Source: Pseudomonas sp. L5B5
Lineage (GTDB): Bacteria > Pseudomonadota > Gammaproteobacteria > Pseudomonadales > Pseudomonadaceae
DNA: 64,000 bases
NCBI RefSeq assembly: GCF_020520285.1
Contig: NZ_CP084742.1
Location: 6,683,501-6,747,500, forward strand
Direction of reading: 5' to 3'
The position numbers and the translations under genes are program-made. Within the stretch, counting starts at the first letter, position 1. Each line of letters starts with the position of its first letter. The notes under the pieces were generated by a model. It saw only the letters and a list, made by a program, of their open reading frames with translations, was not told the origin of the DNA and did not search any database. Below, one piece after another: positions 198-17,813 of this stretch.

Positions 198-740
198 TTA
201 TGCTTCCTGGGCAACGGCATAGGGCAAGTCGATCGGCGGGGCATCCGGCAGCTGGCGCGAGGATTTCACCATCAGGTAACCGATGATCTGCGCCGAGCTC
301 AGCTCGACATGCAGCATCCCTTCATCCCCAAACCACTCGTTGGGCCAGAAGATCAGGTCCGAGGCATTGGCCTCCGGGAAGTTGGTTTCCAGCAGGTCTA
401 GGGCGTAGTCCGTATCAGACTCCGTACCTTCGCACTGGCAGATGAAATCCGTCACTGCACAGGCCTCTTCGAAGCTCAAATCGTCTACGTACTTTTTTTG
501 ATGAAAGGCCGTACGCAGGAAGTTCGCCTCGCTGGTATGGCTGTGCATGTCGCGAAATTCGTGAAACTCGAAAGCTCGGCCGGCGTGGCTGTTCCACTGC
601 TGGATCAGTGCATTGATCTCGGGGCTTTCCCGTTCCTGGTTGTCCCAGGTCGTGTCGAGGATCTGCTTGAGCAAGTCCTTCATCAAGGCACGTACTTTCG
701 GCGTCGCTGGTGTTGGTTTCAGCCGTTCCGGCATGGCCAT
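198..740 (-). CDS. Hypothetical soluble protein (180 aa)
   Basis: I chose the ATG at 740 because AGGGAGA sits seven bases upstream; the longer frame reaching 887 adds low-complexity residues typical of untranslated DNA. The product is acidic and has no signal peptide or membrane span. It has a helical N-terminal half and a C-terminal part rich in Trp, Phe and acidic residues (FWPNEWFGDEG near residue 140). I do not recognise the family. It lies alone between the secreted fragment and the sensor kinase, on the same strand as both. Confidence 0.65.
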   Translation of the reverse strand: MAMPERLKPTPATPKVRALMKDLLKQILDTTWDNQERESPEINALIQQWNSHAGRAFEFHEFRDMHSHTSEANFLRTAFHQKKYVDDLSFEEACAVTDFICQCEGTESDTDYALDLLETNFPEANASDLIFWPNEWFGDEGMLHVELSSAQIIGYLMVKSSRQLPDAPPIDLPYAVAQEA

Positions 741-5864: not shown

Positions 5865-7898
5865 ATGGGCGGGTTGCAATCACGCCGCCTGCGCTACGGC
5901 GTGGGCGCGATAGGGCTGGTATTCGGCTTGCTGGCACTGCTGCGGCTGCTGTTCGCCGTGGGTTTTTCCGGGGTCGACCTGAGCGCTGCCAATGAGCGCG
6001 AGGCCATCCTCCAGACCCTCGGCATCGGCCTGCGCTTCGACCTGCGCCTGACCCTGCTGCTCCTGCTGCCCCTGGCCCTGCTGGCCTGGCTGCCGCGCTA
6101 CAACCTGCTGCGCCTGCCGGCCCTGCGCTGGCTGGCCCGGGCCTACCTGCTGCTGGTGCTGGGCGGGGTAGGGCTGCTGTACATCATCGACTTCGGCCAC
6201 TTCGCCTACCTCGGCGTACGCATCAACGCCACGGTGCTGCGCTACCTGGACGACGCACAGATCTCCCGACAAATGCTCTGGGAAAGCTACCCGGTGCTGT
6301 GGATCGTCCTCGCCTGGGGCACCGCCCTGGCCCTGTGGTGCTACGCCTTGCTGCGCCTGGAACGCCTGACCCTCGACCGCCCGGCCCAGGCCATTGGTCG
6401 GTTGCCCCTGGCCAGCGTCAGCGCCCTGGGCATCGTCGCCGTGTTCCTCGCCCTGCTGGGCCGGGTAGACAACCTCAACCTGGAAAACCCCGTGCCCCTG
6501 CGCTGGAGCGACGCCTACTTCTCCGGCAACAGCCAGATCGCCGCCCTGGGCCTGAACCCCGTGCTGTTCTTCTACGACACCCTCAAGGCCGGCCAGGCCC
6601 AGTACGACGAAGCCCAAGTGCGCCAACACTACTCGGCCCTGGCCCGCTACCTCGGCGTCGACCACCCCGACCCGCACAGCCTGACCTTCACCCGCCAACA
6701 AGGTATTCAGCCCTACCGCATCGACCGCCCGCGGCCGCCCAACGTCATCTTCGTCATGCTCGAATCCCTCGGCACCAGCGCCGTGGGCGCCTACGGCAAC
6801 CCGCTCAACCCCACCCCCAACCTCGACCGCCTGGCCCGCCAGAGCTGGTTCTTCAAACACTTCTACGTCCCGGTCACCGGCACCGCCAAGACCGTGTGGG
6901 CCAGCATCACCGGCGTGCCCGACGTCACCCGCCAAGAGACCGCCACCCGCCAGCCCCTGATCACCCGGCAACACAGCCTGATCAACGCCTTCAGCGACTA
7001 CCACAGGCTCTACCTGATCGGCGGCAACGCCGGCTGGGCCAACATCAACGGCCTGATCCGCCAAAGCATCGACAACGTGCGTCTATACGACGAAAGCCAC
7101 TGGCAATCGCCCCTGGTGGACGTCTGGGGCATCTCCGACCTCGACCTGTTCAAGGAAAGCGATCGCCTGCTGCGCGCCATCCCCCAGGACCAACCGTTCT
7201 TCGCCTACCTGCAAACCTCCGGCAACCACCGCCCGTTCACCATCCCCAAGGACAACGACGGCTTCCAAGCCCAGGACCTGCCCCTGGAGCAAGTCCAGGC
7301 CGCGGGTTCGCGCAGCCTTGCGCAATACAACGCCGTACGCCTGCTGGACTTCAACATCGGCCGTTTAATGGAGATCGCCAAGGCGGGTGGCTACTACGAC
7401 AACACGATTTTCGTGTTCTTCGGCGACCACAACACCCGCATCAGCCAGATCCCCCACATGGCCCCCGCGTTTGAACAGCTGGGGCTGGAAAGCAATAACG
7501 TACCGCTGCTGATTCATGCGCCAGGGATGTTGCAGCCCAGAGTGATCGAACAAGCCGTCGGCCTCGCCGACCTGCTGCCCACCGTGGCCGGCATGGCGGG
7601 GATGCCGTTCACTAATGGCGCCATGGGGCGGGATATTCAGCAGCCAGCGCCGGAGGGGGAGCGGGTGGTGCCGCTGGTATTGAGGGAAGGGACCTTCCCG
7701 GTGATTGGCGGTGTGACCAAGGATTTTCTGCTGCAGATGCAGCACGACGGTAGTGAGGCTACGTTGCATGATTTGGCGTCGAGCACCCCGCGGGAGGATG
7801 TGGCGCAAGAGCATCCGCAGGAATTTGAACGGTTGCTTGAGTTGACGCGGGGAATGCATGAGGGGGCGCGGTTGATGCTCTACCGCAACGTGCGCTGA
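5865..7898 (+). CDS. LtaS/MdoB-like alkaline-phosphatase-superfamily phosphotransferase
   Basis: About 677 residues. Five N-terminal transmembrane helices (roughly residues 10-200) carry a large periplasmic sulfatase-fold domain. Motifs follow lipoteichoic-acid-synthase-like enzymes: VIFVMLESLG (metal-binding Glu), the TGTAKTVWASI segment holding the probable nucleophilic Thr, and FVFFGDHNTR (metal-binding Asp-His). In Gram-negatives such enzymes add phosphoglycerol or phosphoethanolamine to envelope glycans. The upstream AGAGG fits the ATG at 5865 (spacing six) better than the ATG at 5862. The frame also extends back to 5778 inside the previous gene. Probably the last gene of the run beginning at 3909. 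Confidence 0.88.
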   Translation: MGGLQSRRLRYGVGAIGLVFGLLALLRLLFAVGFSGVDLSAANEREAILQTLGIGLRFDLRLTLLLLLPLALLAWLPRYNLLRLPALRWLARAYLLLVLGGVGLLYIIDFGHFAYLGVRINATVLRYLDDAQISRQMLWESYPVLWIVLAWGTALALWCYALLRLERLTLDRPAQAIGRLPLASVSALGIVAVFLALLGRVDNLNLENPVPLRWSDAYFSGNSQIAALGLNPVLFFYDTLKAGQAQYDEAQVRQHYSALARYLGVDHPDPHSLTFTRQQGIQPYRIDRPRPPNVIFVMLESLGTSAVGAYGNPLNPTPNLDRLARQSWFFKHFYVPVTGTAKTVWASITGVPDVTRQETATRQPLITRQHSLINAFSDYHRLYLIGGNAGWANINGLIRQSIDNVRLYDESHWQSPLVDVWGISDLDLFKESDRLLRAIPQDQPFFAYLQTSGNHRPFTIPKDNDGFQAQDLPLEQVQAAGSRSLAQYNAVRLLDFNIGRLMEIAKAGGYYDNTIFVFFGDHNTRISQIPHMAPAFEQLGLESNNVPLLIHAPGMLQPRVIEQAVGLADLLPTVAGMAGMPFTNGAMGRDIQQPAPEGERVVPLVLREGTFPVIGGVTKDFLLQMQHDGSEATLHDLASSTPREDVAQEHPQEFERLLELTRGMHEGARLMLYRNVR

Positions 7899-8114: not shown

Positions 8115-8214
8115 TTTTTAAATACATATCTGTCTACCCACGTGTCCTCCCAGGCCGGTGCTGCGTGACATTATCCGCGCTTTCGGTGCATGGACAGCTG
8201 CGTTGGGTGCCTGA

Positions 8215-8239
8215 TACCTTATCGAAAGGTAATACCTTT
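8215..8239. promoter_or_regulatory. Overlapping palindromes: probable antitoxin operator
   Basis: Two overlapping inverted repeats are present: TACCTT-ATCGA-AAGGTA (8215-8231) and AAAGGTA-A-TACCTTT (8225-8239). They end 19 bases before the ATG of the ribbon-helix-helix gene. RHH antitoxins normally bind short palindromes like this in tandem and repress their own operon, so this is the likely operator. Confidence 0.7.
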
Positions 8240-8258
8240 AGATAACAAGGGTTCGGCT

Positions 8259-8531
8259 ATGGCCACTTCTATCAAGATTGATGACGAGCTAAAAAAACGC
8301 ATTCAGCATCTGGCAGGACTGCGTCAACGTTCGTCCCACTGGATTATGCGCGAAGCAATAGCGCAGTACGTCGAGCGCGAGGAAGCCCGTGAGGGTTTCA
8401 AACAAGAAGCCTTGGCGTCTTGGGCGGCGTATCAGGAAACGGGTCGGCATCTGACCGGCCAAGAAACTCGGGCTTGGCTCAATACCTGGGGTACCGAGGC
8501 TGAGACGGAGCTGCCTAAGTGCCACGATTGA
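8259..8531 (+). CDS. Ribbon-helix-helix antitoxin (CopG/ParD-like)
   Basis: 90 residues from the ATG at 8259. The N-terminal half (MATSIKIDDELKKRIQHLAG and onward to about residue 45) is a classical RHH dimerisation and DNA-binding domain: a beta-strand, then two helices with the S-x-H-W-I-M-R-E-A turn. The polar C-terminal tail would wrap the toxin. Its 3' end overlaps the toxin start by 13 bases, so the two are translationally coupled. Overlapping palindromes upstream support autorepression. Confidence 0.9.
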   Translation: MATSIKIDDELKKRIQHLAGLRQRSSHWIMREAIAQYVEREEAREGFKQEALASWAAYQETGRHLTGQETRAWLNTWGTEAETELPKCHD

Positions 8532-8812
8532 TTCTCACCGAAGGTGCTGCGCAAGGGTTGGAGCGTTGTCGCCAGTTTCTAGTCGAGAAAGGCCCGCTGA
8601 TCGCTCAACGAGCAGCCCAAGTGATTGAGCGTCAAATTGCTCGACTGGAGGAAGACCCAGAAATCGGTCGTCCCTTTCCAGAACTGCCGGAGCTGCGCGA
8701 GCTGATCATCGAGTTCGGTGATTCGGGTTATGTCGCACTTTATCGGCATGAGCGTGTGGATGATGCTGTTTACCTACTTGCCTTTCGGCATCAGAAAGAA
8801 GCCGGTTACTGA
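8519..8812 (+). CDS. ParE/RelE-superfamily toxin
   Basis: 97 residues from a GTG start inside the end of the antitoxin gene. The RelE/ParE fold is recognisable: an N-terminal strand (RLILTEGAAQGLERC), two helices with AAQVIERQIARLEEDPEIGRP, then strands ELIIEFGDSGYVALYR and DAVYLLAFRHQKEAGY. The Y-R-H and A-F-R-H-Q-K-E residues at the end are typical of the group. Target (gyrase or ribosomal mRNA) cannot be decided. A strong hairpin terminator follows at 8852. Confidence 0.9.
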   Translation: MPRLILTEGAAQGLERCRQFLVEKGPLIAQRAAQVIERQIARLEEDPEIGRPFPELPELRELIIEFGDSGYVALYRHERVDDAVYLLAFRHQKEAGY

Positions 8813-9280: not shown

Positions 9281-9943
9281 GACGTATCTCCTAGTACAGC
9301 TTGTGGAGTCATCGTCGCTGCTAAAGGATTGAGTGGTGGCTGTTCGCAGGTTAACAGGCTGGTGTCTTGCGTTGCGCCTCAGAGACAATCAGCTTTTCGT
9401 CGACAACGCTCGTGTCAATCGCCATGTGCGGAGTTTGTTCCCGGTGTGTTTGGCGAAGATAGTCAAGGCTCATTGTTCCCAGACGGATTTACTGCCGAGC
9501 GTTTTGTGGAAGCTGTCGAGGCAGATGAGCTGTGGGGAGGCATTTGTTAACGGAAGGAAGGGAGTTGCCTTGGCTTGGTCTTTTGGATATGGGACATCGC
9601 TTTAGTCCTTGGGAGGGGGCAAGCGATTCGTCGTCATGTGCACAAAGCGTGATCTACCACACCAAACACACGCTACACAGCGAGCCGAGTTTGAGCAGGC
9701 GTGGTTTGGTTGGTTACAGCTTCTTGGATAGGGGATAGCCCACGAAGGCGTTTGCCGAATAGCGGCTGGAGCGGATTTCCTACCAAGGCTTGATCTCGCG
9801 CTCAATCTACAAACAAGTTGAAAGCCGCTAAAAAGTTACTTTGGGTTGTAAAATTTTAGGTTGACTAACAAAATGTCGTTCTACAAGAGACGTCGTGTTA
9901 CTCTCGGGGCTTCATGAGAAGAGAAATTGCTAGGGGCACAGCC
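9281..9943. other. Gene-poor stretch before the restriction island
   Basis: No open frame here has convincing codon usage, ribosome site or recognisable protein. The part next to 9281 resembles, in loose form, the leader of the small gene at 18134 (GTGG, GCTGT, CGC and GGTT blocks about 50 bases before the start). The last 150 bases (9800-9940) are AT-rich and likely carry the promoter for the XRE regulator or hsd operon. Confidence 0.4.
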
Positions 9944-10147
9944 ATGATCCGCTGCCACCTCGCCCGCATGATGGGTGAGCACAAGATGCGTATTGCTGAT
10001 GTTGCCAGAGAAACAGGGCTAAGCCGCGCCACGGTAACCCTGCTCTACAAAGAAACAGCGCAGAAAGTGGATCTGGAAGCCATTGAGAGGCTGTGCCTGC
10101 TGTTTGAATGCCAAATAGGCGATCTGTTTGAGCTGACACAAACATAG
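9944..10147 (+). CDS. Small XRE/Cro-type transcriptional regulator
   Basis: 67 residues from the ATG at 9944 (AGGGGC upstream). Almost the whole protein is one helix-turn-helix domain of the YozG-like Cro/CI group: MRIADVARETGLSRATVTLL is the HTH and ERLCLLFECQIGDLFEL the closing helices. It sits 92 bases before hsdM in the same direction. By analogy with controller proteins of restriction systems it may time expression of the island, but that is inference. The longer frame from 9914 adds ten residues without a better ribosome site. Confidence 0.85.
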   Translation: MIRCHLARMMGEHKMRIADVARETGLSRATVTLLYKETAQKVDLEAIERLCLLFECQIGDLFELTQT

Positions 10148-10239
10148 ATGGCGCTGCCGCCAAGGCTCCAGATCACAAACAGACGTCTTAACTACATCAA
10201 ACAAATGACAAACATTTAGATAATCAATAGGAATACCCC

Positions 10240-11802
10240 ATGACCAGCACCCAACAACGCGCCGCCCTGCAACGCCAGATTTGGGCAATTGCTAACGATG
10301 TTCGTGGCGCAGTCGATGGTTGGGACTTTAAGCAGTACGTGCTTGGCACCTTGTTCTACCGTTTCATCAGCGAAAACTTCGCCAGCTACATTGAGGGCGG
10401 AGACGACAGCATCAAATACGCTGAGTTGCCCGATAAGGTCATCACCGCAGATATCAAAGACGATGCCATTAAGACCAAGGGCTATTTCATCTACCCCAGC
10501 CAGTTGTTTGCCACTATCGCTGCCGGTGCCAACACCAACGAAAGCCTGAACACCGATCTAGCCGCCATCTTTGCCGCTATCGAAAACTCGGCAAACGGCT
10601 ACCCCTCCGAGCGCGACATAAAAGGTCTGTTTGCGGACTTCGACACCACTAGCAACCGTCTGGGCAATACCGTAAAGGACAAGAATGCGCGCCTCGCCGA
10701 CGTGCTCAAAGGTGTAGCCAAGTTGGACTTTGGCACCTTTGACGAAAGCCACATCGACCTGTTTGGCGACGCTTACGAATTCCTCATCTCCAACTACGCC
10801 GCCAATGCCGGCAAATCGGGCGGTGAGTTCTTCACTCCACAGCAGGTCTCCAAGCTGATCGCCCAGCTCGCCATGCACAAGCAAACCAGTATCAACAAGA
10901 TCTACGATCCCGCTTGCGGATCGGGCTCGCTGCTGCTGCAAGCCAAGAGGCACTTTGATGAACACATCATCGAAGACGGTTTTTTCGGTCAGGAACTCAA
11001 CCACACGACGTATAACCTGGCGCGGATGAATATGTTCCTCCACAACGTCAACTACGACAAATTCAATATCCAGCTCGGTGATACGCTGATCGAGCCGCAC
11101 TTTGGCGACGATAAACCCTTCGATGCCATCGTCTCCAACCCGCCGTATTCGGTGAAGTGGAAGGGGGCGGACGACCCCACCCTGATCAACGATGACCGCT
11201 TTGCGCCTGCCGGTGTGCTGGCTCCCAAATCGAAAGCCGACTTTGCTTTTGTGCTGCATGCCCTCAGCTATCTTTCAAGCAAAGGCCGCGCGGCGATTGT
11301 TTGCTTCCCCGGTATTTTTTACCGTGGCGGCGCTGAGCAGAAAATTCGTCAATATCTGGTGGATAACAATTACGTTGAAACCGTGATTTCGCTCGCACCC
11401 AACCTGTTCTTTGGCACCACCATTGCTGTGAATATTCTGGTGCTGTCCAAACACAAAACGGACACCAACACGCAGTTCATTGATGCCAGCGGCAAAGACT
11501 ATTTCAAGAAGGAAACTAACAACAACGTGCTGCTGGATAGGCACATAGACCAGATCATGGCGGTGTTCGACAGCAAGGCGAATGTGGAGCACTTCGCCTT
11601 GTCCGTTCCGTTCGAGAAAGTGGCCGCCAACGATTACAACCTGTCCGTCAGCAGCTACGTCGAAGCGAAGGACAACCGCGAAGTGGTAGATATTGGTGAG
11701 CTCAATGCCGAACTAAAAATTACCGTAGCCAAGATCGACCAGCTTCGGATCGATATTGATGCCATCGTCGCAGAGATTGAAGGCGAGGAGCTAGAGGCAT
11801 GA
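10240..11802 (+). CDS. hsdM: Type I restriction-modification system, DNA methyltransferase subunit M
   Basis: 520-residue adenine-N6 methyltransferase subunit of a type IC (EcoR124/EcoprrI-like) enzyme. The N-terminal HsdM helical domain ([33 protein letters not shown]) is followed by the catalytic domain with SAM-binding motif [12 protein letters not shown] near residue 224 and catalytic NPPYS near residue 300. A C-terminal helix pairs with HsdS. The stop overlaps the hsdS start as ATGA. Full length and apparently intact. Confidence 0.96.
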
Positions 11803-13004
11803 GCAGCATGAGCTTTATGGAAAAGCTGCTGGATGGCTACGAAGTTCAATGGAAGACATTGGGCGATATTGGAGATTTTATTCGTGGCTCAGGCATACAA
11901 AAGTCGGACTTCACGGAGTCGGGCGCTGGTTGCATCCACTACGGCCAGATTCATACGCACTACGGCACATGGGCTGTTAAAACCAAGTCGTTCATTAACC
12001 CTGAATTCGCTGAACGCCTACGGAAAGCAAATACCGGCAATCTGGTGATTGCCACGACCAGCGAGGATGATGCTGCTGTAGCCAAAGCCGTTGCGTGGCT
12101 GGGAGAAGAGGAAGTGGCAGTTAGCACGGATGCCTACATCTATCGGCACACCATTGACCCAAAGTACATGTCGTACTTCTTTCAAACCGAACTATTTCAG
12201 ACACAGAAGAAGCCTCACATCACAGGGATTAAGGTTCGCCGCATATCTGGTGACAGCCTCGCAAAAATCAAAATCCCCATCCCCTGCCCGGAAAACCCAA
12301 AGAGATCGCTTGAAATCCAAGCCGAAATTGTCCGAATTCTGGACGCTTTCTCCGAACTTGCCGCCGAACTTGCCGCCGAACTTACTGCCCGCAAAAGACA
12401 ATACAACTACTATCGCGATCAGTTGTTGAATTTTGATGAAAGGGACGTGGAGTGGAAGACGTTGGGTGAGCTTGCTGAAAACCTTGACTCAAAGCGCAAG
12501 CCTATAAGGAGTGGACTAAGGGATGTTGGTAATATTCCATACTACGGCGCGTCGGGCATTGTCGATTACGTTAAAGATTACATTTTTGATGGTGACTTTT
12601 TGCTTGTTTCTGAAGACGGTGCAAACCTGTTGGCACGAAACACGCCAATAGCATTTAGCGTTAGTGGTAAAAGCTGGGTAAACAATCACGCACATGTACT
12701 TAAATTTGAGACATACGCCGAAAGAAGATACGTTGAGTATTACTTAAATAGCATTGATTTAACGCCATACATTTCAGGGTCTGCTCAGCCGAAGCTGAAT
12801 CAAAAGAACTTAAATGGCATTAAAATTCCAAATCCTTTACCTGAAGAAAAAGAACGCATCGTCGCCATCCTCGACAAATTCGACGCGCTCGCCAGCTCTA
12901 TCACGGAAGGCTTGCCGCGCGAAATTGCGTTGCGCCAACAGCAATACGAGCATTACCGCGATTTGCTGCTGAGCTTCCCTGAGCCTGAAGAGATGGGGGC
13001 ATAA
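11799..13004 (+). CDS. hsdS: Type I restriction-modification system, specificity subunit S
   Basis: 401 residues with the two-fold layout of HsdS. Target recognition domain 1 begins [15 protein letters not shown], and a central conserved helical spacer ends [15 protein letters not shown]. Domain 2 begins [12 protein letters not shown], and a C-terminal helix ends [16 protein letters not shown]. The two domains set a bipartite recognition site. The central spacer contains three near-identical 12-base units encoding ELAA/ELTA, matching the TAEL repeats of EcoR124. The second recognition domain is clearly more AT-rich than its flanks, as expected for a swapped TRD. Confidence 0.95.
12354..12389 (+). 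repeat. Three 12-base units in the hsdS central spacer
   Basis: GAACTTGCCGCC at 12354 and 12366 and GAACTTACTGCC at 12378 lie head to tail and encode [12 protein letters not shown]. In the EcoR124 family gain or loss of one unit changes the length of the nonspecific spacer in the recognised DNA, so this is a potential specificity switch. Confidence 0.85.
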
Positions 13005-13005
13005 C

Positions 13006-14205
13006 ATGAGCAGGACGCTAACAGAAATTGCTCAACAACTGAGTACACCAAAAACAGTTAAAAAAACTGTACCTGAAAAAACCAAGGAGGTTGAAGAAGC
13101 CAAGCCGGTTCCAAAGGTGCAGCTGATATATGCCTTTAATGGTACAGGCAAGACACGCCTTTCACGGGAGTTCAAACAGCTGATTGCGCCCAAAGCCGAT
13201 GACAATGAGGGCGATGATGAACCCAATCAGGCTGAGTTGACGCGCAACAAAGTCCTTTATTACAACGCTTTTACCGAGGACTTGTTTTATTGGGATAACG
13301 ATCTGGAGAGTGATGCAGAACCGAAACTAAAAATTCAGCCCAATTCTTATACAGACTGGCTGCTCACTCTACTCAAAGATCTCGGCCAAGATAGAAACAT
13401 CGTTACCTACTTCCAGCGATATGCGAATGACAAACTAACTCCGCATTTTAGCGAAGACTTTACTGAAGTTAGCTTTTCACTAGAGCGAGGTGACGATGAA
13501 CGTACCGGTCATATCAAAATATCAAAAGGCGAAGAAAGTAACTTCATCTGGAGCGTTTTCCATACTCTGCTAGATCAAGTTGTAACGATTTTAAATATCG
13601 TCGAGCCTAGTGAGAGAGAAACCAACCAGTTCGATAAATTGGAATATGTGTTTATTGATGATCCAGTCAGCTCTCTCGATGAGAACCATTTAATTGAATT
13701 GTCCGTCAACTTGGCGAGCTTGATAAAATCCAGTCAATCTTCTCTAAAGTTCATCATTACAACGCACAGTCCGCTGTTTTATAACGTGCTGCATAATGAG
13801 CTAAAAAATAAAACCTGTTACATGTTGGGGCGACTTGAGGATGGCACCTTTGATCTGGTTGAAAAGCATGGTGACTCCGATACAAGCTTTTCCTATCACT
13901 TGCACCTTAAGAAAATTCTTGAGAAAGCTATTGCTGATAATCAGGTGCAAAAATATCATTTTACACTCTTGCGTAATTTGTATGAGAAAACAGCCAGTTA
14001 TCTGGGCTATCCAAGATGGGCGGAGCTTTTGCCTGACGATAAACAAACCTATTTAAAGTTTATTATTCAATTTACCAGTCATAGCACCTTATCCCACGAA
14101 ACCGTCGCCGAGCCTAGTGAGCCAGAAAAAAATACGGTCGCGCTATTGCTTAATCACTTGGCGAGCACCTACAGATTTTGGCAGCAGGAAAATCAAAATG
14201 GTTGA
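13006..14205 (+). CDS. prrC: PrrC-type anticodon nuclease (tRNA-cleaving guard of the RM system)
   Basis: 399 residues. The N-terminal ABC-like ATPase has Walker A AFNGTGKT (43-50), the signature-like SKGEESN, Walker B with D-loop [12 protein letters not shown] and an H-loop ITTHS. The C-terminal third holds Arg323-x3-Glu327-x31-His359, the same residues and spacing as the catalytic triad Arg320/Glu324/His356 of E. coli PrrC, which cleaves tRNA-Lys at the anticodon. Length and position (between hsdS and hsdR, one base after hsdS) also match EcoprrI. In the known system the associated Hsd complex keeps PrrC silent, and phage inhibition of restriction releases it. It ends with an 8-base overlap into hsdR. 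Confidence 0.93.
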
Positions 14206-17200
14206 TTACACAAAGCCCATCGCCGAATCGAATAGCTTCATCGTTCTGGACAAATACACCCAAGAATGGAACGTCGCAGAAAACTACCAAAGCGAAGGCG
14301 ACCTAGAGCGAGAGTTTATTCAAGACATGCAGAATCAGGGCTACGAGTATGCCCTTGGTTTAAACACACCTGCGAAACTGCTGTCCAATGCGCGCGAGCA
14401 GTTGCAGGCATTGAACAACATGCAGTTTCTTGAAGGCGAGTGGCAGCGCTTTGTTGAAACCTATCTGGACAGACCCAGCGACAGCATCGTCGATAAAACC
14501 CGCAAGATCCATGATGACTATATCCATGACTTTGTGTTTGACGATGGTCATATTCAGAACATATATCTGCTGGATAAAAAGAATATTGTCCGTAATAAGG
14601 TGCAGGTGATCAAGCAGTTTGAGCAAGCGGGCAGCCATGCCAACCGATACGATGTGACGATCTTGGTCAATGGTCTGCCGCTGGTGCAGGTGGAGCTGAA
14701 GAAGCGAGGCGTGGCGATTCGCGAAGCCTTTAATCAGGTGCACCGTTACAGCAAAGAAAGCTTTAACAGCGAGCAGTCTTTGTTCAAGTATTTGCAGCTG
14801 TTTGTCATTTCCAACGGCACCGATAGCCGTTATTTTGCCAACACCACCCAGCGTAACAAAAACAGCTTCGACTTCACCATGAATTGGGCAAAGTCGGATA
14901 ACAGCCTGATCAAAGACCTGAAAGACTTTACCGCTACGTTCTTTCAGAAAAACACCCTGCTCAATGTGTTGCTGCATTATTCGGTGTTTGATGTTAGCAA
15001 TGCGCTGTTGGTAATGCGTCCCTACCAAATTGCTGCCACTGAGCGAATTTTGTGGAAGATCAACAGCGCTTATCAGGCCAAGAGCTGGAGTCAGCTTGAG
15101 GGCGGCGGCTTTATCTGGCATACCACCGGCTCAGGCAAAACGCTGACCAGTTTTAAAGCGGCGCGCTTGGCTACCGAACTTGAGTTCATCGACAAAGTGT
15201 TCTTCGTGGTGGATCGCAAGGATCTGGATTACCAGACCATGAAGGAATACCAGCGTTTTTCACCGGATAGTGTGAATGGCTCTGACTCTACCGCCGGCCT
15301 GAAACGCAACCTGGATAAGGACGACAACAAGATTGTCGTCACCACGATCCAGAAGCTCAATAATCTGATGAAAAGCGAAGGCGACCTACCCATCTATAAC
15401 AAGCAGGTGGTGTTTATTTTTGATGAATGCCACCGAAGCCAGTTCGGTGAAGCTCAGAAAAATCTAAAGAAGAAATTCAAAAAGTTCTATCAGTTTGGCT
15501 TTACCGGCACTCCTATTTTTCCGCAAAACGCCCTGGGCGCGGACACTACTGCCAGCGTGTTCGGTCGGGAGTTGCATTCGTATGTAATTACCGACGCCAT
15601 TCGTGATGAAAAAGTGCTCAAGTTCAAGGTGGACTACAACGATGTGCGCCCGCAGTTCAAAGCCATCGAAACCGAGACAGACGAGAAAAAGCTGAGCGCA
15701 GCAGAGAACAAGCAAGCCCTGTTGCACCCCGACCGTATCCGCGAGATTACGCAGTACATCCTGAATAACTTCCGGCAAAAAACCCACCGCCTGCAATCTG
15801 CAACAAAAGGCTTCAACGCCATGTTTGCGGTTAGCAGCGTGGATGCAGCCAAGCTGTACTACGAGTGCTTCAGGGAGCTGCAGAAGAGCAGCGAAAAACC
15901 ACTGAGGGTGGCCACTATCTTCTCGTTCGCTGCCAACGAGGAGCAGGATGCGATTGGCGACATTCAGGACGAAAGTTTTGATGTGGCTGCCATGAACAGC
16001 AGCGCCAAGGAGTTCTTGAGCGCGGCCATTGTCGATTACAACACGCTGTTCAAAACCAACTTCAGCGTGGACAGCAATGGCTTCCAGAATTACTACCGTG
16101 ATCTGGCCAAGCAGGTTAAAGCCAAGGAAATTGACCTGCTGATCGTGGTCGGCATGTTCCTGACCGGCTTTGACGCCCCCACGCTGAACACCCTGTTTGT
16201 GGACAAGAACCTGCGCTACCACGGTTTGATGCAGGCTTACTCGCGTACCAACCGAATTTTCGACGCCACCAAGACCTTTGGCAATATCGTTACCTTCCGC
16301 GACCTGGAACAGGCGACCATCGACGCCATTACCTTGTTTGGAGATAAAAACACCAAGAATGTGGTGTTGGAGAAGAGCTACAAGGAATACATGGAGGGCT
16401 TTACCGATGTGGCCACCGGTGAAGCGCGGCGCGGTTTTGTGGGAGTGGTGAAAGAGTTGGAACAGCGTTTTCCTGACCCTTCAGCCATTGAAAAAGAGTC
16501 CGATAAAAAAGCCTTCGCGAAACTGTTCGGCGAGTATTTGCGCGTTGAGAACGTGCTGCAGAACTACGATGAATTTGCCAGCCTGAAGGCCTTGCAAAGT
16601 GTCGACCTGAATGATCCGGAGGCAGTTGAGGCATTTAAGGCCAAGCACTATTTAAACGATGAAGATCTGGCTGCGTTGCAAACAATTAAGATGCCGGCAG
16701 AGCGGAAAATTCAGGACTATCGCTCAACCTATAACGATGTTCGCGATTGGCTGCGTCGGGAGAAGTCCTCCAACGACAATGAAAAATCAACTATCGATTG
16801 GGATGATGTGGTCTTTGAGGTGGACCTGCTCAAGTCGCAAGAAATCAACCTAGATTACATCCTGGAGCTGATCTTCGAGCACAACAAAAAGGTCAAGAGC
16901 AAGTCCGACCTAGTGGATGAGGTGCGTCGCGTGATTCGCGCAAGTCTGGGCAACCGCGCCAAAGAGAGCTTGCTTGTGGACTTCATCAATCAAAACGACC
17001 TTGACCAGATTGGCGATAAGGCCAGTGTGATAGACGCCTTCTTCATCTTCGCCCAAGCGGAACAACAACGAGAGGCTCAGGAACTGATTAGCGCTGAGAA
17101 CCTTAATGCAGAAGCGGCCAGACGCTATATCACCACTGCTCTCAAGAGGGAGTTCGCCAGCGACAGCGGCACAGAGCTCAACGCCGTGCTACCCAAGATG

Positions 17201-17308
17201 AGCCCGCTGAACCCACAATACCTAACCAAGAAGCAGAGCGTGTTCCGAAAGATCGCTGCGTTTGTCGAGAAGTTTAAAGGTGTGGGTGGGAGTGTCTGGA
17301 AAATATGA
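14198..17308 (+). CDS. hsdR: Type I restriction-modification system, endonuclease/translocase subunit R
   Basis: 1036-residue motor-nuclease subunit starting at ATG 14198 ([11 protein letters not shown]). The N-terminal PD-(D/E)xK nuclease has the Asp in [11 protein letters not shown] and the ExK in VQVELKKRG (about residues 150-170). The SF2 translocase follows with Walker [13 protein letters not shown] (about 310), [10 protein letters not shown] (DEAD-box-like motif II), GFTGTPIF motif III, and later MFLTGFDAP and AYSRTNRIF motifs V-VI. A helical C-terminal domain completes it. No break is seen, so restriction should be functional with hsdM and hsdS. Confidence 0.96.
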
Positions 17309-17457
17309 AATTTAGCTCTTGGAGCTTCATTTAGCGTGAATATGCTTCATTTGTTAGCTATTTAAACCCAAGTTGACAAAAACAGAGAGCTTACAGTCAG
17401 AGCTGTGGCTCTCCGAACACCATTGCTTTAGCGAGTGAGTAGGGGGTTGAGCTTTAA
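17309..17457. other. Short spacer after hsdR
   Basis: No clear gene and no strong hairpin. The bases just after the hsdR stop are AT-rich. Confidence 0.4.
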
Positions 17458-17601
17458 TCAAGCCCAGCTTGTTAGCAGCAAGGCTACAAGTAGTAGTGGG
17501 AAACGCGGTAGGGTCAATAGCAGGGCTATGACCATACAAACGCCGGCGAAGATGCCGATCACCAGCAGCAGGTTAATAAAAAGCTGAGCGTGCATTTTCA
17601 T
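17458..17601 (-). CDS. 47-residue membrane micropeptide
   Basis: ATG at 17601 (or 17595), stop at 17458. The product has two hydrophobic segments: FINLLLVIGIFAGVCMVIAL and LLLVALLLTSW, separated by TLPRFP. This would make a short two-helix hairpin in the inner membrane. A GGGG stretch lies a few bases before the start. It is in the opposite direction to the restriction operon and has no recognisable relative. Codon use is unremarkable, so I treat it as probable rather than certain. Confidence 0.5.
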   Translation of the reverse strand: MKMHAQLFINLLLVIGIFAGVCMVIALLLTLPRFPLLLVALLLTSWA

Positions 17602-17813
17602 GGGTGAGCCCCGTTCTGTCAGTACCCGCAGCCCTTGTATCCTACTATTGGTTTTTTCCTATCTTCCGTTGTGTCCCCCGCCTGTCTCCACCACTTCATC
17701 GTCGGATGAGGTACAAATGACGTTGTACGCCATTGGACAGGGGAATACACGCCCCCAAGAATAGCTAAGCTATCAGGTGAGTTACCGGATGGGATAGGTT
17801 TATTTTGGAGAGT

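Follow-up and report, generated by a model that had tools for sequence, protein, structure and literature searches.

The present analysis indicates that the prrC gene located at positions 13006-14205 (+) of a 64,000-nucleotide (nt) stretch of the Pseudomonas sp. L5B5 chromosome (contig NZ_CP084742.1, positions 6,683,501 to 6,747,500; hereafter the window) very probably encodes a latent anticodon nuclease of the E. coli PrrC (EcoPrrC) type, which would be silenced by a type IC restriction complex, be freed when a phage inhibits this complex and then cleave tRNA-Lys. This reading is supported by the intactness of all four operon genes, by the full ABC-ATPase, the catalytic triad, a tRNA-recognition region with its invariant Asp and the presence of the target gene in the host genome. 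From homology with E. coli, we infer masking, release, cleavage and benefit as follows: PrrC would dock on the HsdMSR complex and remain latent; an anti-restriction factor of the phage, Stp-like or not, would disable this complex; hydrolysis of nucleoside triphosphate by the ABC domain would then release the nuclease; and the freed enzyme would cut tRNA-Lys(UUU) 5' of the wobble base, halting protein synthesis and the phage together. The cell would thus have two layers of defence, restriction first and translation arrest second. A two-layer defence of this type has been reported for PrrC and EcoprrI of E. coli, and a comparable system for PrrC170 of Klebsiella (PMC11555353 for PrrC170).

The protein matches the PADLOC PrrC model with 485.7 bits (E=2.2e-146). 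This bears out the PrrC family assignment proposed in a preliminary description made from the letters alone; the gene that it placed at these positions is likewise an exact open reading frame (ORF) of 399 amino acids (aa), with an ATG start and a TGA stop. Pfam yielded one family, AAA_13, NCBIfam assigned none, and a search of PDB sequences retrieved no chain at E 1e-3. A genome scan identified 500 PrrC relatives, the best 80 of which share 60-80% identity with the window protein in their best segments. These 80 were aligned with the window PrrC and with those of an E. coli plasmid (L024, 396 aa, 73-75% identical) and an Azotobacter plasmid (L025), giving the set of 83 sequences on which the following counts are based. 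The catalytic triad spans 13972-14082 (+) and consists of R323 (13972-13974), E327 (13984-13986) and H359 (14080-14082); Arg is found at 323 in 82 of the 83 proteins, Glu at 327 and His at 359 in all of them. These residues align with positions 320, 324 and 356 of L024, the reference used here in place of the original CTr5X protein, and these are the published E. coli PrrC numbers. The published triad R320/E324/H356 has spacings, x3 and x31, equal to those of the window protein (PMC2610378, PMC3014915), so the E. coli spacing claimed in the preliminary description stands, and the alignment places its residues at corresponding positions. A chance occurrence of the triad motif is ruled out by the PADLOC family model and the alignment of 83 sequences. 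The only PrrC of the set devoid of the triad arginine is encoded by a Desulfovibrionaceae metagenome-assembled genome (MAG; L104:8001-9116).

The ABC-ATPase motif set is complete and strongly conserved, with a Walker A region at residues 42-51 (13129-13158, +) that includes FNGTGKT (44-50), the signature SKGEES (173-178), Walker B (214-225) and the switch histidine H254. A further block of 15 residues (85-99; 13258-13302, +), 14 positions of which are kept in at least 77 of the 83 sequences, probably represents the 'PrrC box', with which it was matched by length and not by the published letters. This box comprises 15 residues (PMC3014915). An ABC-ATPase combined with an Arg-Glu-His triad is also found in RloC (PMC2610378), and the window protein might in principle be RloC-like and respond on its own to DNA damage. 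However, it has 399 aa compared to 658-897 for RloC, its single cysteine leaves no CXXC motif, and its gene is linked to restriction-modification (R-M) genes, a linkage reported for only eight of 73 RloC (PMC2610378). The RloC identity was therefore rejected on size and absence of a zinc hook, and we regard its probability as close to nil.

The region that matches the E. coli tRNA-recognition peptide 284-294 lies at residues 287-297 (13864-13896, +), and eight of its 11 residues are the same as in L024 (KYGDSNKSFSY). In E. coli PrrC, this peptide is implicated in tRNA-Lys binding (PMC3014915). D290, the equivalent of E. coli D287, is invariant (83/83).

Several observations nevertheless weigh against an EcoPrrC-type nuclease specific for tRNA-Lys. 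Asp292 is found only in the window protein, the 82 others having Asn; the neighbouring Thr293 is rare (2/83, the window protein and L104), the family residue being Lys; and Phe352, seven residues ahead of His359, is also restricted to the window protein (Arg in 78/83, Leu in 4/83). In the predicted fold, whose overall scores are moderate (mean predicted local distance difference test, pLDDT, 77.8; predicted template modelling score 0.65), pLDDT falls below 50 in the His359 loop (359-366) and in the recognition peptide (291-296). Because of the low values at 359-366, the model gives no view of triad geometry. Finally, no Pseudomonas phage appears among the 160 matches listed over three Stp-type searches, two of which used Stp-like peptides as query, with 60 matches listed for each. 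As for the fold itself, the PDB chains among the 50 structure matches listed span residues 1-300 at most, so the nuclease part lies outside this test; none of these 50 is a HEPN-named protein, which we do not count as evidence against HEPN.

Since Asp292 is unique and stands beside the rare Thr293, the lysine specificity of the window PrrC is in question. The protein may be active as a PrrC but cleave another tRNA instead of, or in addition to, tRNA-Lys, owing to its altered recognition peptide, in which Asp and Thr replace the adjacent Asn and Lys of the family, and it has been proposed that PrrC substrates may vary since the recognition sequence varies (PMC3014915). However, eight of the 11 peptide residues are kept, including the D287-equivalent Asp, L104 and one IMG/VR locus (L124) share the Thr at 293, and Klebsiella PrrC170 targets tRNA-Lys in spite of just 35% identity to EcoPrrC (PMC11555353). 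An altered target thus appears unlikely. We give a similarly small chance to a more specific form of this idea, in which Asp292-Thr293 (together with Phe352) would shift tRNA choice or the degree to which wobble-base modification is tolerated while the R-M-gated chassis is kept; if this were true, the protein would be a natural variant for dissecting anticodon reading by PrrC. When the recognition motif was sought in 24 loci, 21 from IMG/VR and three from Pseudomonas (L057 and L067 of the set of 83 being two of these three), it was found in 16, with Asn each time at the 292-equivalent position; in L124, the Thr is preceded by this Asn.

The unusual residues could alternatively reflect a drifting or inactive nuclease domain in a working restriction system, prrC then persisting as a passenger through which translation of hsdR stays coupled. 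Of the 161 columns in which the other sequences hardly vary, the window protein deviates in one N-terminal and four C-terminal positions, the family means being 2.2 and 0.96, respectively, as would be expected from such a passenger. Its frame and triad are nevertheless intact, and its C-terminal part as a whole is no outlier (z -1.29, 11th lowest of 83), a value by which a degenerate C-terminal domain was rejected. We therefore consider a passenger improbable, slightly more so than an altered target.

An EcoPrrC-type nuclease would find its substrate in this host, whose genome carries two tRNA-Lys(UUU) genes with identical anticodon arms and the loop CTTTTAA (a search made with one pattern, for this isoacceptor). 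We take this loop to be the same in E. coli tRNA-Lys. By homology with EcoPrrC, tRNA-Lys is the likely target of the window PrrC. Concerning the trigger, a tblastn search with T4 Stp against 50,697 phage records (E up to 10) matched 791 records; Pseudomonas is not among their ten commonest name groups, but eleven further groups are unnamed, so that Pseudomonas phages may still have a Stp. T4-like phages commonly encode Stp-like peptides, which Drexlerviridae and other siphophages also possess in the form of 26-codon ORFs. In five siphophages (L139-L143), among which three are Drexlerviridae, such an ORF lies at positions 501-581 (+) of the extracted loci, shows the core HNEH-V/I-MQ-F/W-YR and in all five cases corresponds to no annotated coding sequence; some other phage records (Rtp, ST1UNAM) name such peptides anticodon nuclease activators. 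The window PrrC itself matched no sequence in the phage records and 21 loci in IMG/VR.

As had been described, prrC stands between hsdS and hsdR as in EcoprrI. It comes third in an hsdM-hsdS-prrC-hsdR operon (10240-17308, +) that is intact, all four frames being open, and that lies on a 6.81-Mb single-contig chromosome. The first gene, hsdM (10240-11802, +), encodes a type I DNA methyltransferase subunit of 520 aa (TIGR00497 hsdM, 634.9 bits; PF02384, PF12161) with the catalytic motifs DPACGSG at 223 and NPPY at 300. The second, hsdS (11799-13004, +), encodes a specificity subunit of 401 aa with PF01420 in two stretches (PADLOC Specificity_I, 444.4 bits). The last, hsdR (14198-17308, +), encodes a restriction/translocase subunit of 1036 aa (TIGR00348, 689.9 bits; PF12008 EcoR124_C) with the nuclease motif D152..ELK, TGSGKT at 310 and DECH at 409; its start was placed by homology at the ATG at 14198, the mechanical list of ORFs putting it at 14117. 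The HsdM and HsdR catalytic sites were recognised by their usual motif patterns. Along the operon, hsdM and hsdS overlap by 4 nt, 1 nt separates the hsdS stop from the prrC start, and prrC and hsdR overlap by 8 nt (ATGGTTGA). A promoter scan of 9500-17700 gave five sites compared to 8.2 expected in shuffles and did not identify the operon promoter.

The same organization is found in the relatives. All four genes were matched in 75 of the 83 loci, each time in the order M-S-C-R (the scripted check of this order covered the 64 loci passing length filters); the eight others lack one or two genes, mostly where a contig ends near prrC. The gap between hsdS and prrC is 1 nt in 73 of the 76 measurable loci, the seven left out having no hsdS match or a PrrC alignment that does not begin at residue 1. 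Between prrC and hsdR, 42 of 75 loci show an overlap of 8 nt, 25 a gap of more than 60 nt and eight other small values. The 1-nt gap and the 8-nt overlap recur across loci titled to several phyla, MAGs included. This wide recurrence suggests that translational coupling sets the dose of PrrC between S and R. Gap-filling ORFs are listed after prrC in 20 loci and between hsdM and hsdS in 15. Eight were scanned, five in the former slot (L027, L032, L044, L069, L103) and three in the latter (L050, L053, L081), and all match Pfam: RhuM (n = 3), Fic (n = 2), BRO-N, YhcG/DUF1016 and AAA_14-DUF4143. RhuM alongside PrrC-like genes and DOC alongside RloC-like genes have already been described (PMC3710099). 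Furthermore, in 64 operons, distances are correlated between HsdM and HsdR (r=0.70), PrrC and HsdM (0.38), PrrC and HsdR (0.25) and for the three HsdS pairs (0.18-0.24), none of these values being reached in 999 permutations. PrrC is thus part of the cassette, but since its r is 0.25-0.38 compared to 0.70, it follows HsdM and HsdR less closely than those two follow each other.

The operon sits in a low-GC stretch, with 41% GC in the kilobase 13001-14000 and values of 46-53% for the remaining kilobases between 8 and 18 kb; on either side, in 1-8 kb as in 19-26 kb, GC is 60-69%. Therefore, horizontal acquisition of the operon as a cassette is probable. Similarity to the window breaks off at 7898, 7894 and 7891 in three relatives (L181-L183) and is not resumed within about 12 kb beyond. 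A ParD/ParE-like pair (ribbon-helix-helix antitoxin and ParE-type toxin; 8190-8812) is located upstream of the operon, where the low-GC stretch begins. ARAGORN detected no tRNA gene in the window.

Among 298 genomes of the genus, including that of the host, 21 match the window PrrC at E 1e-3. Four carry a PrrC of the window's type: the host itself, G184, G107 and G273 (split over two contigs). The loci of G184 and G107 match loci of Pseudomonas petrae P2653 and Pseudomonas sp. 14P_8.1_Bac3 with 100% identity from end to end. Eight other matches are weak, concern larger open frames of 554-762 aa and are probably other ABC ATPases. The remaining nine (L106-L114, e.g., L109:5910-7034, +) form a second, divergent PrrC clade with 36-46% identity (29-36% by tblastn); the four that were scanned match the PADLOC PrrC model with 349-473 bits. 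All nine retain the triad residues and have hsdM directly after prrC, whereas the recognition motif KxGDSNKSFSYH is absent; an hsdR-like sequence lies upstream in eight (in two pieces in L113), and the ORF just upstream of prrC was matched to HsdS only in L109. PrrC is listed in a survey of Pseudomonas strains, in which its presence correlated with resistance to phages (PMC12447246). Among the papers listed on Pseudomonas PrrC and on Stp, we saw none that tested a Pseudomonas PrrC by experiment.

PrrC systems of this kind are already known and widespread, and that of the window is an ordinary further example that leaves the picture of the family unchanged. It shares with E. coli PrrC/EcoprrI (prrABCD) the gene order hsdM-hsdS-prrC-hsdR, the triad and its spacing, the ABC motifs and most of the recognition peptide; the R-M partners are type IC-like in both, the window HsdR having an EcoR124_C domain. 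In its relative on the E. coli plasmid L024 (CP057689), the two prrC junctions likewise measure 1 nt and 8 nt. Identity between the two reaches about 75% for PrrC, which differs at Asp292, Thr293 and Phe352, and 80% for HsdR. It is just 36% for HsdS, so the two systems likely have different DNA targets. The L024 plasmid also carries terminase, late-promoter-activator and Doc/Phd-like genes, and we take it to resemble a P1-type phage-plasmid. Klebsiella PrrC170 is, like the window protein, an ABC-ATPase anticodon nuclease associated with a type I R-M system and targets tRNA-Lys, but its genes are arranged HsdR-HsdS-PrrC-HsdM instead of M-S-C-R and it is 35% identical to EcoPrrC (PMC11555353). 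The nine divergent Pseudomonas loci, unlike the window, resemble that of PrrC170 in gene order. RloC has an ABC-ATPase and an Arg-x3-Glu-x-His triad in common with the window PrrC, but is twice the size, carries a coiled-coil/CXXC zinc-hook insert, is mostly unlinked to R-M genes and excises the wobble nucleotide (PMC2610378). Overall, this work contributes a complete PrrC system on a chromosome of Pseudomonas, where the presence of PrrC has been correlated with phage resistance (PMC12447246), and its recognition peptide is a naturally occurring variant on which tRNA specificity could be tested.
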